A DNA stretch of 64,000 nt from Flavobacteriia bacterium 40-80 (lineage in GTDB: Bacteria > Bacteroidota > Bacteroidia > Flavobacteriales_D > Crocinitomicaceae): NCBI GenBank assembly GCA_001899145.1, contig MKVF01000006.1:248001-312000 (forward strand), written 5' to 3'. Position numbers and translations under genes: made by a program. Each line of letters begins with the position of its first letter. Within the stretch, counting starts at the first letter, position 1. Shown here piece after piece: positions 2,320-6,605 of the stretch. The notes beneath the pieces were generated by a model that did not search any database, was not told the origin of the DNA, and was given only the letters and a program-made list of their open reading frames with translations.

Positions 2320-3480
2320 TTACAGGAATTCTTCCACTACGGAAATATTTCCCGAATAATCAATTACGGGCATTTTACCGATGCAATGTTCTAAGCTGCG
2401 CAGGTCCGTCAGCGAGCTGTCCAGGTAACGTTCAATAACGGAAATGTGTAAAAATTCTTTTGTAGGTAAATTTTCACTGGTATCCGGTATTTTATAAAAT
2501 AAATCAAAAAGTAACTGCTTAAAGAAAGGAGTCCGCGTTTTGCATTTGTTGATTACCCTGTAATATTTTGGAAAAAATTTATATCCTCTTCTTCTGGATT
2601 CGTTTTTAGGACTTTTTGCAGACTTGCTCAGATCATTGAGATCTACCTGATAACCAGCATTCAATCCATGTTCAATAGCTCTGGATATTAAATAGTTCAG
2701 CGGTAGCTTATACAAGTCTCCCTGATGATATCCGCCTCCGACATCGCAATGAACTCCACAAAACCATACCTGCTCTAATTTTTGATTTTTAAATTTTTCT
2801 CCGGTTTCCTGCTGCCAGAGTGTCGGAGCAAAAAACACCCGCTTTTCATCTATTGCCAATGCGTGATAAGCATTCTGAATCACCGAGCTTAATTTCACAT
2901 CATGAAAACGGTGTTTTCCTGTGCCAAATCTTCCTATTTTAAAAGGAATTCCCAATGAACCAACTGTATCCCATACACCGATAAACCGGATAGGCGTTTG
3001 CTCCAGCGGATAAGAAAAGTGTTCACGAAAGAACTTCGATTCGTCACTTTCGGGAGCGTATTTTCTATCCCTGCTGCGATAAATAAAAAAGGCTCTTTCT
3101 GCCTTGGTAAGATAATCCCTTTTAAGAATTCCGCAGTTTCGGATCAATCCTGCAAGGCTTCGGACAGTATATGCTCCCCTGCTGAATCCAAACAGAAAAA
3201 TCTCCGTACCGATCGTATAACGTTCTATGATGAACCTATACAAATCCAGGATATTTCCATCTATTCCTTTACCGGTAACACCTCCAAAGAATTTATCCGA
3301 ACCATTTCCCGTACCAACTCCTTCGTCATAGTAAACATATTGAACATCGCCATTCGGACATGTTTCTTTCAGGGTATGGGCAAAACTTTTGAATACATTG
3401 GTCGGAGCGACGTATTTACCGTCTTTGTTTGCTGAAGAATTCCAGGTTCCGTCAGCAAATATTACAATTCGCTTTTTCAT
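2320..3480 (-). CDS. DUF2235 alpha/beta hydrolase (Tle1-like phospholipase domain)
   Basis: A 386-residue protein of the DUF2235 family, whose best-known members are type VI secretion phospholipase effectors (Tle1). The family opening IVIFADGTWN is at residues 5-14. The nucleophile elbow GFSRGAY places the serine at residue 100. The expected aspartate lies in FIGVWDTVGSLG and the histidine in CGVHCDVGGGY. No signal peptide or membrane segment is visible. It follows the M15 peptidase gene by 24 bp on the same strand, so the two are probably co-transcribed. Hydrolase fold and triad are seen directly; lipase activity and any secretion route are inference, and no type VI structural gene is in the window. 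Confidence 0.88.
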   Translation of the reverse strand: MKKRIVIFADGTWNSSANKDGKYVAPTNVFKSFAHTLKETCPNGDVQYVYYDEGVGTGNGSDKFFGGVTGKGIDGNILDLYRFIIERYTIGTEIFLFGFSRGAYTVRSLAGLIRNCGILKRDYLTKAERAFFIYRSRDRKYAPESDESKFFREHFSYPLEQTPIRFIGVWDTVGSLGIPFKIGRFGTGKHRFHDVKLSSVIQNAYHALAIDEKRVFFAPTLWQQETGEKFKNQKLEQVWFCGVHCDVGGGYHQGDLYKLPLNYLISRAIEHGLNAGYQVDLNDLSKSAKSPKNESRRRGYKFFPKYYRVINKCKTRTPFFKQLLFDLFYKIPDTSENLPTKEFLHISVIERYLDSSLTDLRSLEHCIGKMPVIDYSGNISVVEEFL

Positions 3481-3504: not shown

Positions 3505-4308
3505 TTATTTCCGGATAATTTTCCCGATCTCAAAGTGCATTCCGTCAGGCCGGCTGAAATGACCTCCCCAATAGAACCCCCATTTGTTCGCAATGGGAAC
3601 GAGCTCTCTCACAGATCCCGGCTGCCCGACAAGCGCAGGTGTTTTTCCCAGGCCGTTCCAAGCAGGATTGATGTCAAATGCCGTCCCGTAAGAATGATTG
3701 GATAAAACAGTTCTGCTCCCACGGACAAAACGGGGATAATAAGCTCCCGCATACGTTTTAACAAGAGGCAATAATCCCTTCTTCTCTATCTCTATAAAAA
3801 ATTGTTGTAACTGATAAGCACATTCCTTATGAAATCTCATCCGGGTATATTTACCATTGGTAGCAACAGCGAGCTGTGGAATTTCTACAGTGATAATATT
3901 GTCTTTTTCAAAAGAATTGGTAATGATGATCCCTTCCGGATTATTGACAGTAGGATTCGGTTTAAATGCTATTTTTCCGAACAGTGCTTCCCGCTGAGCA
4001 TTCGTGACCAGAGGAGGAAACGATGATTTCTCCGGAAAGTTCAGAGATTTTTTCTCAGAAGATGCCGCCGGGTCTTCTATATCTAAATGAAAGCCTGAAG
4101 AAATTGCTTTTGCCCACGTTACGGGACCAACGATTCCGTCATCCTTCAACTTATATTTTCGTTGAAACTGTTTGGTAGCCTCCAGTGTTTTACCTCCAAA
4201 ATCGTCGTCTATAATATTTTTATACAGATTCAGATTTCTCAAAAAAGCCTGCCAGTCTCCCACCAGCTCGCTTTTCATTCCTTTTCGGAGTACAGTTAGT
4301 CTTTTCAT
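3505..4308 (-). CDS. Peptidoglycan-binding domain plus M15 metallopeptidase
   Basis: A 267-residue two-domain cell-wall hydrolase. Residues 10-70 form a PG_binding_1 domain (LRKGMKSELVGDWQAFL, then TKQFQRKYKLKDDGIVGPVTW). Residues 145-267 form a VanY/M15-type DD- or LD-peptidase with zinc ligands H205 and D212 in SNHSYGTAFD and H258 in DGMHFE. No N-terminal signal peptide is visible, which is unusual for an enzyme acting in the periplasm and resembles phage endolysins or secreted effectors. It is the first gene of a probable two-gene operon with the DUF2235 hydrolase. Domain calls are secure; the biological target (own wall, competitor or phage-type lysis) is open. Confidence 0.9.
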   Translation of the reverse strand: MKRLTVLRKGMKSELVGDWQAFLRNLNLYKNIIDDDFGGKTLEATKQFQRKYKLKDDGIVGPVTWAKAISSGFHLDIEDPAASSEKKSLNFPEKSSFPPLVTNAQREALFGKIAFKPNPTVNNPEGIIITNSFEKDNIITVEIPQLAVATNGKYTRMRFHKECAYQLQQFFIEIEKKGLLPLVKTYAGAYYPRFVRGSRTVLSNHSYGTAFDINPAWNGLGKTPALVGQPGSVRELVPIANKWGFYWGGHFSRPDGMHFEIGKIIRK

Positions 4309-4713: not shown

Positions 4714-4740
4714 AGGTATTTTTTATATTTGAGAATACCT
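4714..4740 (+). promoter_or_regulatory. Promoter -7 element inside an inverted repeat
   Basis: TATATTTG (4724-4731) fits the Bacteroidota -7 consensus TAnnTTTG. It lies between the arms AGGTATT (4714-4720) and AATACCT (4734-4740), an arrangement expected for a repressor operator covering the promoter. A matching -33 TTTG is not evident. The element makes the TTG at 4729 an implausible start for the downstream gene and supports the ATG at 4756. Confidence 0.6.
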
Positions 4741-4755
4741 AATAATTTAATCCCT

Positions 4756-5985
4756 ATGTTGAAAAGATATAAGGAAACGACTGTGTATGAAGAATCTGTT
4801 AACCGACTTGACTACATTTATTCAAATTTTGATAAAGTATATATTTCCTTTAGCGGGGGAAAAGACAGTGGCATTTTATTGAACATGGCCATCGACGCAG
4901 CCCGCCGTCATAATAAATTACCTGTACATACCCTTATTATTGATCTGGAGGCGCAATACGGACATACGGTTGATTACATAACACGCATGGCATCCAAACC
5001 GGAGGTTAAGCCCTACTGGATCTGCCTGCCGATACATTTAAGGAATGCTGTAAGCCAATTTCAGCCCCATTGGATCTGTTGGGATGAAGATAAACGTAAA
5101 GCGTGGGTACGCGAGTATCCTGATCATCCTTCAGTCATAAAAGACCCCGATTATTTTCCGTTTTTCCGCAAAGGAATGGAATTTGAAGAATTTGTTCTTG
5201 AATTTGGCAGATGGTTCTCCGGCGGTGAAGAAACCGCATGCCTGATAGGAATCCGTACAGATGAAAGCTATAACCGCTACAGGACAATCGCAAATTTCAC
5301 AAAAAAACGCTATCAAAATAAGCAATGGAGCACACAGGTAGATACCGGACTTTATAATTTTTACCCGATCTACGACTGGGCCACAAAAGATATCTGGATC
5401 GCCAACAGAAACTATCAGTTCGATTATAATAAGATTTATGACCTGATGTACCTTGCGGGAGTGCCGCTTTCGAAAATGAGGCTTTGCCAGCCTTACGGAG
5501 ATGATCAGCGAAAGGGGTTATATCTTTACAAGATACTGGAGCCCGAAACCTGGGGAAAGGTAGTACACCGTGTGGAAGGAGCCAATTTCGGAAACCGGTA
5601 TTCGGAAAACAGCAGGACGGTATTCGGAAATTTTAAAATAAATCTCCCTGAAGGTCACACCTATGAAAGCTATGCAAAATTCCTGCTGGAGACCATGCCT
5701 CCTTATTTAAGGAATCACTACAACTCCAAGATCAATAAATTTCTTGAATACTGGAAAAAGAACGGTTATAAGAAAAATATCCCCGAAGTGGCAGATCCTG
5801 CCTTGGAAGCACAGAAAAAAGCACCTTCCTGGAGAAGGATCTGTAAAGTATTGCTTAAAAATGATTATTGGTGCAGAGGACTTTCCTTTTCTCAAACCAA
5901 AGGAGAAATGGAGAGACAGCTGAATATATTTTTTAAAATCCCTAGCTATAATATATATGATCACACAGATAATAGAGCAGAATAA
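4756..5985 (+). CDS. IbrA-like PP-loop (PAPS reductase family, DUF3440) protein
   Basis: A 409-residue protein of the phosphoadenosine-phosphosulfate reductase-like PP-loop superfamily with the DUF3440 C-terminal region, as in E. coli IbrA. The adenylate-binding PP-loop is SFSGGKDSG (residues 31-39). Other family features are IIDLEAQYGHT, IGIRTDESYNRYRT and MRLCQPYGDDQR. The frame is open from a TTG at 4729, but that codon lies in the -7 box, so the ATG at 4756 is used. Its 3' end overlaps the ParB-like gene by 29 bp, indicating coupled expression. A role in sulfur or nucleotide chemistry is suggested by the fold. It is unlikely to be assimilatory CysH, because the fusion and partner differ and no cys genes are nearby. 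Confidence 0.9.
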   Translation: MLKRYKETTVYEESVNRLDYIYSNFDKVYISFSGGKDSGILLNMAIDAARRHNKLPVHTLIIDLEAQYGHTVDYITRMASKPEVKPYWICLPIHLRNAVSQFQPHWICWDEDKRKAWVREYPDHPSVIKDPDYFPFFRKGMEFEEFVLEFGRWFSGGEETACLIGIRTDESYNRYRTIANFTKKRYQNKQWSTQVDTGLYNFYPIYDWATKDIWIANRNYQFDYNKIYDLMYLAGVPLSKMRLCQPYGDDQRKGLYLYKILEPETWGKVVHRVEGANFGNRYSENSRTVFGNFKINLPEGHTYESYAKFLLETMPPYLRNHYNSKINKFLEYWKKNGYKKNIPEVADPALEAQKKAPSWRRICKVLLKNDYWCRGLSFSQTKGEMERQLNIFFKIPSYNIYDHTDNRAE

Positions 5986-6565
5986 AAATGCTTCTTTTCA
6001 GCGAAAAGTAGAGATCTACAACCGGATCACAGCGCAGCTATATGAATTTATGGGATTGAAACATCCTGTCTTAAACATTCAGCTCATCCCGCTTGATCGG
6101 GTGGAAGGCAATGATTACAACCCAAATAAGGTTGCTCCTCCGGAAATGAAGCTTCTTGAGCTTTCCGTAAAAAAAGACGGCCTGACAATGCCCATAGTCG
6201 TAGCAGCCGAAAAAAAGAACGAAAACTGGGTAATTGTTGATGGTTTTCACCGCACAGCCGTGTGTAAGGATGTTCCGGAGATCCGAGAAAGCCTTGAAGG
6301 TTATCTTCCTGTTACTGTCCTGGAAAAAAACCTGGAAAGCAGAGTTGCTTCCACCGTGCGTCACAATATCGCCAGAGGAACACACCAGGTAGAATTATCT
6401 GCAAAGCTGGTTGCATTTCTCAAACGTAACGACTGGTCCAACAAGCGTATCGGAGAAGAATTGGGAATGGATCCCGATGAAGTATTAAGATTGAGACAGA
6501 TTACAGGCTTAGCGGAAGCATTTCAGGATCAGGAGTTTTCAAAATCATGGGAGCTGAAACAATAA
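5957..6565 (+). CDS. IbrB-like ParB/Srx-domain protein
   Basis: A 202-residue ParB-fold protein that partners IbrA-like proteins. The ParB/sulfiredoxin-type domain spans about residues 40-135 with DGFHRTAV (95-102), in the position of the family nucleotide-binding G-x-HR motif. It is followed by RHNIARGTHQV (135-145) and a helix-turn-helix-like segment around 160-182 (WSNKRIGEELGMDPDEVLRLR). It overlaps the IbrA-like gene by 29 bp and is followed by a terminator, so the two form a closed bicistronic unit. E. coli IbrAB was described as a regulator of immunoglobulin-binding protein genes; the biochemistry remains unclear. DNA binding is plausible from the HTH, not shown. Confidence 0.87.
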   Translation: MITQIIEQNKNASFQRKVEIYNRITAQLYEFMGLKHPVLNIQLIPLDRVEGNDYNPNKVAPPEMKLLELSVKKDGLTMPIVVAAEKKNENWVIVDGFHRTAVCKDVPEIRESLEGYLPVTVLEKNLESRVASTVRHNIARGTHQVELSAKLVAFLKRNDWSNKRIGEELGMDPDEVLRLRQITGLAEAFQDQEFSKSWELKQ

Positions 6566-6574
6566 TATAAAATA

Positions 6575-6605
6575 AATCCGGACATCACTAAGCAGTGCCC
6601 GGATT
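6575..6605. terminator. Hairpin between convergent ibrB-like and sod genes
   Basis: AATCCGG (6575-6581) pairs with CCGGATT (6599-6605), with an inner CACT/AGTG stem. T-rich sequence lies beyond the minus-strand side, so it probably ends superoxide dismutase transcription and possibly both genes. Confidence 0.65.

Follow-up and report, generated by a model that had tools for sequence, protein, structure and literature searches.

An ibrA/ibrB gene pair in a flavobacterial genome and its possible role in nucleic-acid modification

The window analysed here is a 64-kb stretch (64,000 nucleotides) of the genome of Flavobacteriia bacterium 40-80 (contig MKVF01000006.1, positions 248,001 to 312,000). 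Close to its start, two overlapping genes encode a PP-loop protein and a ParB-like protein (Table 1). The pair certainly belongs to the IbrAB/YbdNM family, which has a name and an uncharacterised chemistry. IbrB lies directly beside IbrA on the same strand, the arrangement by which the family is recognised. A first reading of the window, made from its sequence only, had already identified the genes as IbrA and IbrB, which is correct, as is the overlap that it gave for the second open reading frame. In Myroides (L070) the two genes likewise overlap by 29 bp. In the window, the pair is flanked by an M15-type peptidase gene on one side and by sodA on the other; the open reading frame list contains no CysN-type gene beside ibrA.

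Table 1 Features of the ibrA/ibrB locus (positions in the window)
Feature	Position	Strand	Description and basis
ibrA (IbrA)	4756..5985	+	409 aa; N-terminal PP-loop (PAPS-reductase-like) domain and basic C-terminal DUF3440 domain; Pfam, PHROG, AlphaFold
ibrB (IbrB)	5957..6565	+	202 aa; predicted KorB/ParB-like NTP-binding fold with DGFHR, C-terminal HTH; PHROG, AlphaFold
ibrA/ibrB overlap	5957..5985	+	29 bp; sequence
TATATTTG	4724..4731	+	presumed Bacteroidota-type -7 box; sequence
Palindrome	4714..4740		AGGTATT (4714-4720), 13 bp, AATACCT (4734-4740); surrounds the -7 box; chance possible
Hairpin	6575..6605		between convergent ibrB and sodA; possible terminator; 7-bp outer stem; RNAfold

Two genes of the opposite strand precede ibrA. 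The nearer one (3505-4308, minus strand) encodes an M15 peptidase with a peptidoglycan-binding domain. It adjoins a gene for a Tle1-like phospholipase-domain protein (2320-3480, minus strand; PF09994, 1e-78).

The open reading frame list starts ibrA at TTG 4729, giving 418 aa, which is probably too long. This TTG falls within the TATATTTG element, which we take to be a -7 box, and homologues align from ATG 4756; the start is therefore placed at ATG 4756. There are 32 plus-strand occurrences of TANNTTTG in the window, and no TTG box was seen by eye at the usual distance upstream of TATATTTG. The palindrome around the box had been taken for an operator belonging to the pair. It exists, but does not rise above chance: at least one such 7-bp repeat is found in 27% of 100-bp Markov sequences of equal make-up, and two more occur within the same 210 bp. 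Nor is it conserved. None of the three nearest relatives has such a repeat at the corresponding position before ibrA: in two of them 200 bp hold no 7-bp repeat whatever, and in the third different ones occur elsewhere. The operator claim was consequently dropped. A terminator had also been proposed to bound the pair. The hairpin is present, and the 52-base stretch that contains it has an RNAfold energy of -10.9 kcal/mol. Its T-run is poor, however, and it is missing from the output of the terminator scan.

IbrA carries a PP-loop (SGGKDS) and, as had been read from its sequence, a DUF3440 domain. Both of its Pfam domains score above cut-off: PAPS_reduct (PF01507; 2.4e-12, 47.7 bits against 22.5) precedes DUF3440 (PF11922; 3.2e-39, 135 bits against 25), which makes IbrA a DUF3440 member. 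PHROG 2302 is matched at 6e-93. Alignment of 59 IbrA sequences reveals strict conservation (59/59) of S33, G35-S38, D63, E65, W106, W109, R119, R167, E170, S171, R174, D207 and D212, among others. No cysteine is invariant in the 59 sequences, the best conserved being C244 (56/59). The catalytic ECGxH motif is found in none and CxxC in one. Beyond residue 240 the protein is basic, with a median charge of +10 and a pI of 9.6 over the 59 sequences. Phage, plasmid and E. coli sequences are included in alignments A1 and A2 but not in A3 and A4, which also leave out near-copies; in A3 and A4, the IbrA list further lacks L130 and the IbrB list L050.

A single-sequence search of the PDB with IbrA gave no convincing relative (best E 0.26). 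Using a profile, the nearest chains were CysD (4.4e-9), FAD synthase (2.3e-6) and PAPS reductase (7.7e-6). The AlphaFold model of IbrA (pLDDT 88.5) resembles FAD synthase (Z 15.4, 174 residues, rmsd 3.2), APS reductase (Z 15.4, 181 residues, rmsd 3.9) and CysD (Z 14.5, 172 residues, rmsd 4.9); these comparisons span residues 5-262, with the C-terminal DUF3440 part beyond that range. AMP transfer by CysD and FAD synthase needs no catalytic cysteine, which favours adenylylation as the candidate reaction of IbrA. In the predicted model the fold does not settle the type of reaction, since adenylyltransferases and APS/PAPS reductases reach equally high scores. Given the near-invariant cysteine in the aligned sequences, a LarE-like sacrificial sulfur role may also be considered.

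IbrA is usually annotated as a sulfur enzyme, probably wrongly. A PAPS/APS reductase (CysH) is ruled out, as ECGxH, absent from all 59 IbrAs, is present in the CysH of the same genome and in that of E. coli. The CysD model gives IbrA 20.9 bits against a cut-off of 396.6, and a CysD above cut-off sits elsewhere in the genome, on contig C18. There (G000:C18:440606-442129), cysH, whose product bears ECGLH, and cysD are followed by cysN, the latter read from translations. With this separate cysH-cysD-cysN set, sulfate assimilation was rejected as the function of IbrAB in this genome. The sequence-only reading had named genome-wide evidence for a sulfate-assimilation role as the finding that would tell against it; the genome's own genes, the missing motif and the sporadic occurrence of the family (5 of 395 genomes) all point away from such a role.

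A wider involvement in sulfur metabolism or transfer, with IbrA handling sulfate, cysteine sulfur or PAPS, perhaps for a thiolation-like sulfur insertion, seems improbable to us. The motif and cysteine counts of IbrA and the genome's own cysHDN argue against it, and no sulfate-assimilation gene was seen, by eye, among the neighbour families that recur in at least four loci. Support for it comes in part from E. coli, and there from eleven genes of sulfur uptake and assimilation, which we take to be under CysB control. In a citR deletion mutant these genes (yeeE, tcyP, cysAUW, cysNDC and cysHIJ) rise by log2 1.7-3.2, together with ybdN (log2 5.5) and ybdM (2.5); flagellar genes rise more, which leaves room for an indirect effect on the sulfur genes (PMC9068703, excerpts). 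In the accessible main text of that paper the sulfur effect goes undiscussed: the word cysteine is absent, and CysB appears in a list only. In Salmonella, ybdM follows the met genes, and its gene cluster contains a MetJ site by prediction (PMC11481890, excerpts); ybdL, a methionine transaminase gene, recurs beside the pair in four enterobacterial loci. A SulP-like permease, identified by eye, adjoins the pair in G029. Finally, profiles of DndC and BrxP match most IbrAs. The PADLOC DndC models match 56 of 59 and the BrxP models 50 of 59, in both cases over partial length (best 9.5e-11 and 7.2e-10, respectively), with weak matches for the window IbrA (8e-8 and 3e-4).

IbrB matches the ParB-like phage family PHROG 2159 (1.3e-62). 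Pfam ParB_N (PF02195) stays below threshold (18.5 against 26.3 bits), and TIGR00180 gives 18.9 against 58.45 bits, short of the score curated for ParB partition proteins. Again, a single-sequence PDB search found no convincing relative (best E 0.018). The AlphaFold model (pLDDT 88.8) matches KorB best (Z 14.2, 155 residues, rmsd 4.6), the match extending through the HTH, and also ParB and Noc (Z 10-11). SerK (Z 8.8), sulfiredoxin (8.7) and SbnI (7.9) match the N-terminal domain only; by score, the SerK model gives IbrB 15.3 against 380 bits. IbrB is predicted to have a ParB/Srx fold followed by an HTH, as in KorB and ParB. It had been described as a ParB-fold protein with GFHR and a C-terminal HTH; the DGFHR motif, the HTH and, in the predicted model, the KorB-like fold agree with this, but Pfam ParB_N does not reach its cut-off. 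Invariant in 58 IbrB sequences are N52-x-YNPN, DG-x-HR and N-x-AR-G, and in the HTH G170, M171, E175, R178 and Q181. The HTH segment 173-188 ranks third of ten segments (mean modal fraction 0.77, range 0.35-0.86).

KorB is a repressor, and E. coli IbrAB has been reported to activate prophage eib genes (PMC6008420, excerpts). The two proteins might accordingly form a transcriptional co-activator pair, in which IbrB would be a KorB-like NTP-gated operator binder and IbrA an ATP-sensing co-factor, with no covalent modification. That citR represses ybdNM and that YbdM is a predicted transcription factor (PMC9068703, excerpts) is consistent with such a role. We nonetheless regard it as unlikely: PP-loop residues are retained in 59/59 IbrAs, the HTH is well conserved across phyla and not diversified, and the GNAT-like and SNF2 neighbours described below would be left unexplained.

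Five of 395 Bacteroidota genomes carry IbrA and the same five carry IbrB, while 390 pass neither threshold (IbrA profile E <=1e-40, IbrB profile E <=1e-15; weaker relatives are not counted). The two genes are side by side in four of the five and about 1.3 kb apart in G445. In a broader survey, IbrB is found near IbrA on the same strand at 117 of 122 non-redundant loci, for a genome set made of the best 80 of 298. The collections covered viruses, genomes, phages and plasmids, and the loci were picked by similarity to IbrA, so that close relatives are favoured; near-copies above 92% IbrA identity (144 loci before their removal) and divergent IbrA-like genes below 250 bits, such as L011 and L012, are left out of the count. 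The order is A-B, adjoining (<=50 bp) or overlapping, at 70 of the paired loci and A-B with a gap of 51-700 bp at 28; another 17 are B-A with a gap of 51-700 bp, and 2 have other layouts. Homologues that lack the ParB-like partner and yet perform the same function had been named as evidence against a two-protein system. Pairing at 117 loci speaks for such a system; against it stand two real orphans in Clostridia MAGs (L137, L149), with no IbrB in the 10 kb covered, the three other unpaired loci (L043, L061, L097) lying near a contig edge.

Two loci of the survey have unusual gene structures. In Edwardsiella anguillarum (L130, 11249-11809), IbrB is split over two open reading frames, probably a broken gene. 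One viral contig (L060, 10476-13052) has a second, divergent IbrA/IbrB pair adjoining the first.

The distribution of the family points to mobility. Of 59 relatives, a set to which the window's own genome belongs, the IbrA query matches 2. It also matches 216 of 50,697 phage records, 43 of them with at least 80% query coverage and all 43 below 60% identity, and 599 of 72,556 plasmid records, 572 of them with at least 80% coverage. The closest relatives of the window IbrA are in Myroides indicus (78%) and Sphingobacterium chuzhouense (76%); G029, of the same family as the window's genome, is lower (73%). In the tree, these four group together (SH-aLRT 99), and the window, Myroides and Sphingobacterium sequences split from that of G029 (SH-aLRT 94, just below the starred level). 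Comparison of the sodA loci of 29 relatives (1.5-kb flanks) identified two, G023 and G001, that share the window genes on the far side of sodA, namely those for a 149-aa protein and a c-type cytochrome-like protein, and hflX. In their 20-kb stretches, the genes on the ibrB side of sodA are different throughout; ibrB therefore marks a break in gene order. The exact ends of an insertion could not be set from these stretches. Horizontal gain of the window ibrAB is the simplest reading and the most likely one.

Surroundings differ among the related copies. Downstream of the Sphingobacterium pair (L071, 12192-18938) there are serine-recombinase-like, AbiE-like pair and HsdR-like genes. The G029 pair (L150, 9226-15596) adjoins, besides the permease, a P-type-ATPase-like gene (both loci judged by eye). 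A Klebsiella plasmid copy (L010, 1382-9282) lies between fec and iro genes.

Carriage by phages and plasmids at the above numbers would suit anti-phage defence, inter-phage conflict or a toxin-antitoxin pair, as would the recombinase-, AbiE- and HsdR-like neighbours of the one Sphingobacterium copy. The Listeria genes lmo1309/lmo1310 (ParB/DUF3440) have been listed as toxin-antitoxin genes by guilt by association (PMC7020466). A known anti-phage system was searched for with PADLOC and rejected: the window IbrB matches no model, and IbrA gives only the partial DndC and BrxP matches. E. coli YbdM is 29-fold more abundant with a CTX-M-15 plasmid, and its overexpression alone costs 10% of growth rate only (PMC8764527, excerpts). 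Taken with the PADLOC result, this mild effect makes a defence or toxin-antitoxin role quite unlikely in our view.

Many ibrAB operons contain a third gene. Profiles of four accessory families were run on 121 non-redundant loci (400-bit floor): an SNF2 helicase family is found at 34, a GNAT-like protein at 33, a small protein called S at 29 and a protein with a Cys-rich start at 14. GNAT-like and S never occur together (0/121). A gene of these families was counted as accessory if it lay on the strand of the pair and no more than about 4.5 kb away, and those of L085, L121 and L081 may be unrelated neighbours. Counted over the 122 loci, the SNF2 family is again present at 34, and in 33 its start is 0.4-2.2 kb upstream of IbrA; the two members tried in Pfam confirm the family (1.6e-20 and 2.2e-11). 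At 51 loci, near-copies counted, ibrA and ibrB are 150-1500 bp apart with an open reading frame between them. Sorting by eye and with alignments A5 and A6, from which near-copies are also left out, gave 24 S frames, every one at a B-A locus, and 27 frames at A-B loci, of which 25 are GNAT-like (exceptions: L085 and L130). Pfam GNAT models match 5 of the 25 GNAT-like members, and the GNAT-like profile finds only weak acetyltransferase matches in the PDB (best 0.0052). S has no match in Pfam (one member) or PHROGs (two members). Two fusions were found, an IbrA-GNAT-like protein of 578 aa (L136) and an IbrB-S protein of 382 aa (L093). They suggest that the third parts of IbrAB may be interchangeable.

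At E 1e-4, none of the four families is present in the first 20 kb of the window together with the 8 kb that precede it, or in its three closest relatives (G029, L070 and L071). The helicase is present in L072 and L013, among the nearer relatives. Searches of the open-licence PMC literature turned up no mention of an association of GNAT, S or SNF2 proteins with ibrAB; these operon variants are new as far as the literature searches reach. They make nucleic-acid or nucleotide modification by IbrAB more plausible.

A PP-loop ATPase coupled to a nucleotide-binding, DNA-contacting partner had been suggested by the sequence-only reading, and the predicted folds of IbrA and IbrB fit this view. Our preferred reading, which we hold tentatively, is an ATP-dependent modification directed at nucleic acid, or a control of gene expression based on such a modification. 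The pair would have been acquired horizontally as a bare two-gene operon. The PP-loop of IbrA would bind ATP, and the substrate would be activated by adenylylation, as in CysD and FAD synthase. The basic DUF3440 domain could hold nucleic acid, and IbrB, as an NTP-binding KorB/ParB-like protein with an HTH, could carry IbrA to its DNA target. As a result, DNA (or RNA), or something bound there, would be modified. Such a modification would also explain the prophage-gene activation reported for E. coli IbrAB. A more specific form of this proposal is more doubtful: IbrAB might form the centre of an ATP-dependent system for modifying nucleic acids that has so far gone undescribed. IbrA would then adenylylate or ligate at base or backbone, with IbrB as an NTP-gated DNA clamp and with GNAT-like, S and SNF2 proteins as interchangeable third parts that vary chemistry or access.

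If IbrAB does modify DNA or RNA, this would be a new modification route common to phages and their hosts. E. coli K-12 has a copy of the pair, as do hundreds of plasmid records and many phages, and the chemistry of the family is untouched in searchable papers; no biochemical study of IbrAB/YbdNM was found in the open-licence PMC literature. The results also bear on viral sulfur genes. An E. coli CysH query matches 4 of 50,697 phage records, 3 with at least 80% coverage, compared with 216 and 43 for IbrA, although divergent CysH may escape a search made with one CysH query. Among the 60 IbrA phage matches listed (of 216), 29 bear an annotation as PAPS reductase or something close to it; the name of PHROG 2302, too, is that of a PAPS reductase. 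From these counts and labels, published viral 'cysH' sulfur genes from metagenomes (e.g. those in excerpts of PMC8725595) may include IbrA-like proteins.

In the literature, IbrA/IbrB have been described in a Macrococcus phage as possible virulence regulators (PMC6008420), in Flavobacterium phage FCL-2 (PMC4541368), in glacial viruses (PMC4490671), in Heimdallarchaeal viruses (PMC8813620) and in phage gene networks (PMC5874904; all from excerpts). Both window proteins strongly match the phage families, namely the 'phosphoadenosine phosphosulfate reductase' PHROG 2302 and the ParB-like PHROG 2159. Viral copies often come with an S protein and some with a GNAT-like protein or SNF2 helicase, whereas the window copy has none. 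Among the closest known systems are IbrA-IbrB and YbdN-YbdM (b0602-b0601) of E. coli, the latter with the same two genes in the same order, a 28-bp overlap by the K-12 annotation and 41-42% identity between YbdN and the window IbrA. In K-12, ybdNM is CitR-repressed and located beside citR, dsbG and ybdL, unlike the window copy between its peptidase gene and sodA.

IbrA shares its N-terminal fold with CysD, CysH and FAD synthase (Z 14-15), but differs from them in having no adjacent CysN-type gene, no ECGxH and an extra basic DUF3440 domain. In IbrB, DGFHR replaces the GERR motif of ParB, and its 202 aa leave little for a C-terminal dimer domain, unlike in KorB, ParB and Noc. DndC and BrxP are PP-loop enzymes of the same superfamily as IbrA. 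By score IbrA falls outside DndC, with 23.1 bits against a cut-off of 290.4 for the NCBIfam equivalog. Compared by description, DndC has cysteine ligands and a cysteine dyad (PMC10853773, excerpts), whereas IbrA has no invariant cysteine. The Dnd system nevertheless offers a parallel in its organisation, as there also a PP-loop enzyme, DndC, is coupled to a protein of the ParB superfamily, DndB (PMC10853773, excerpts).
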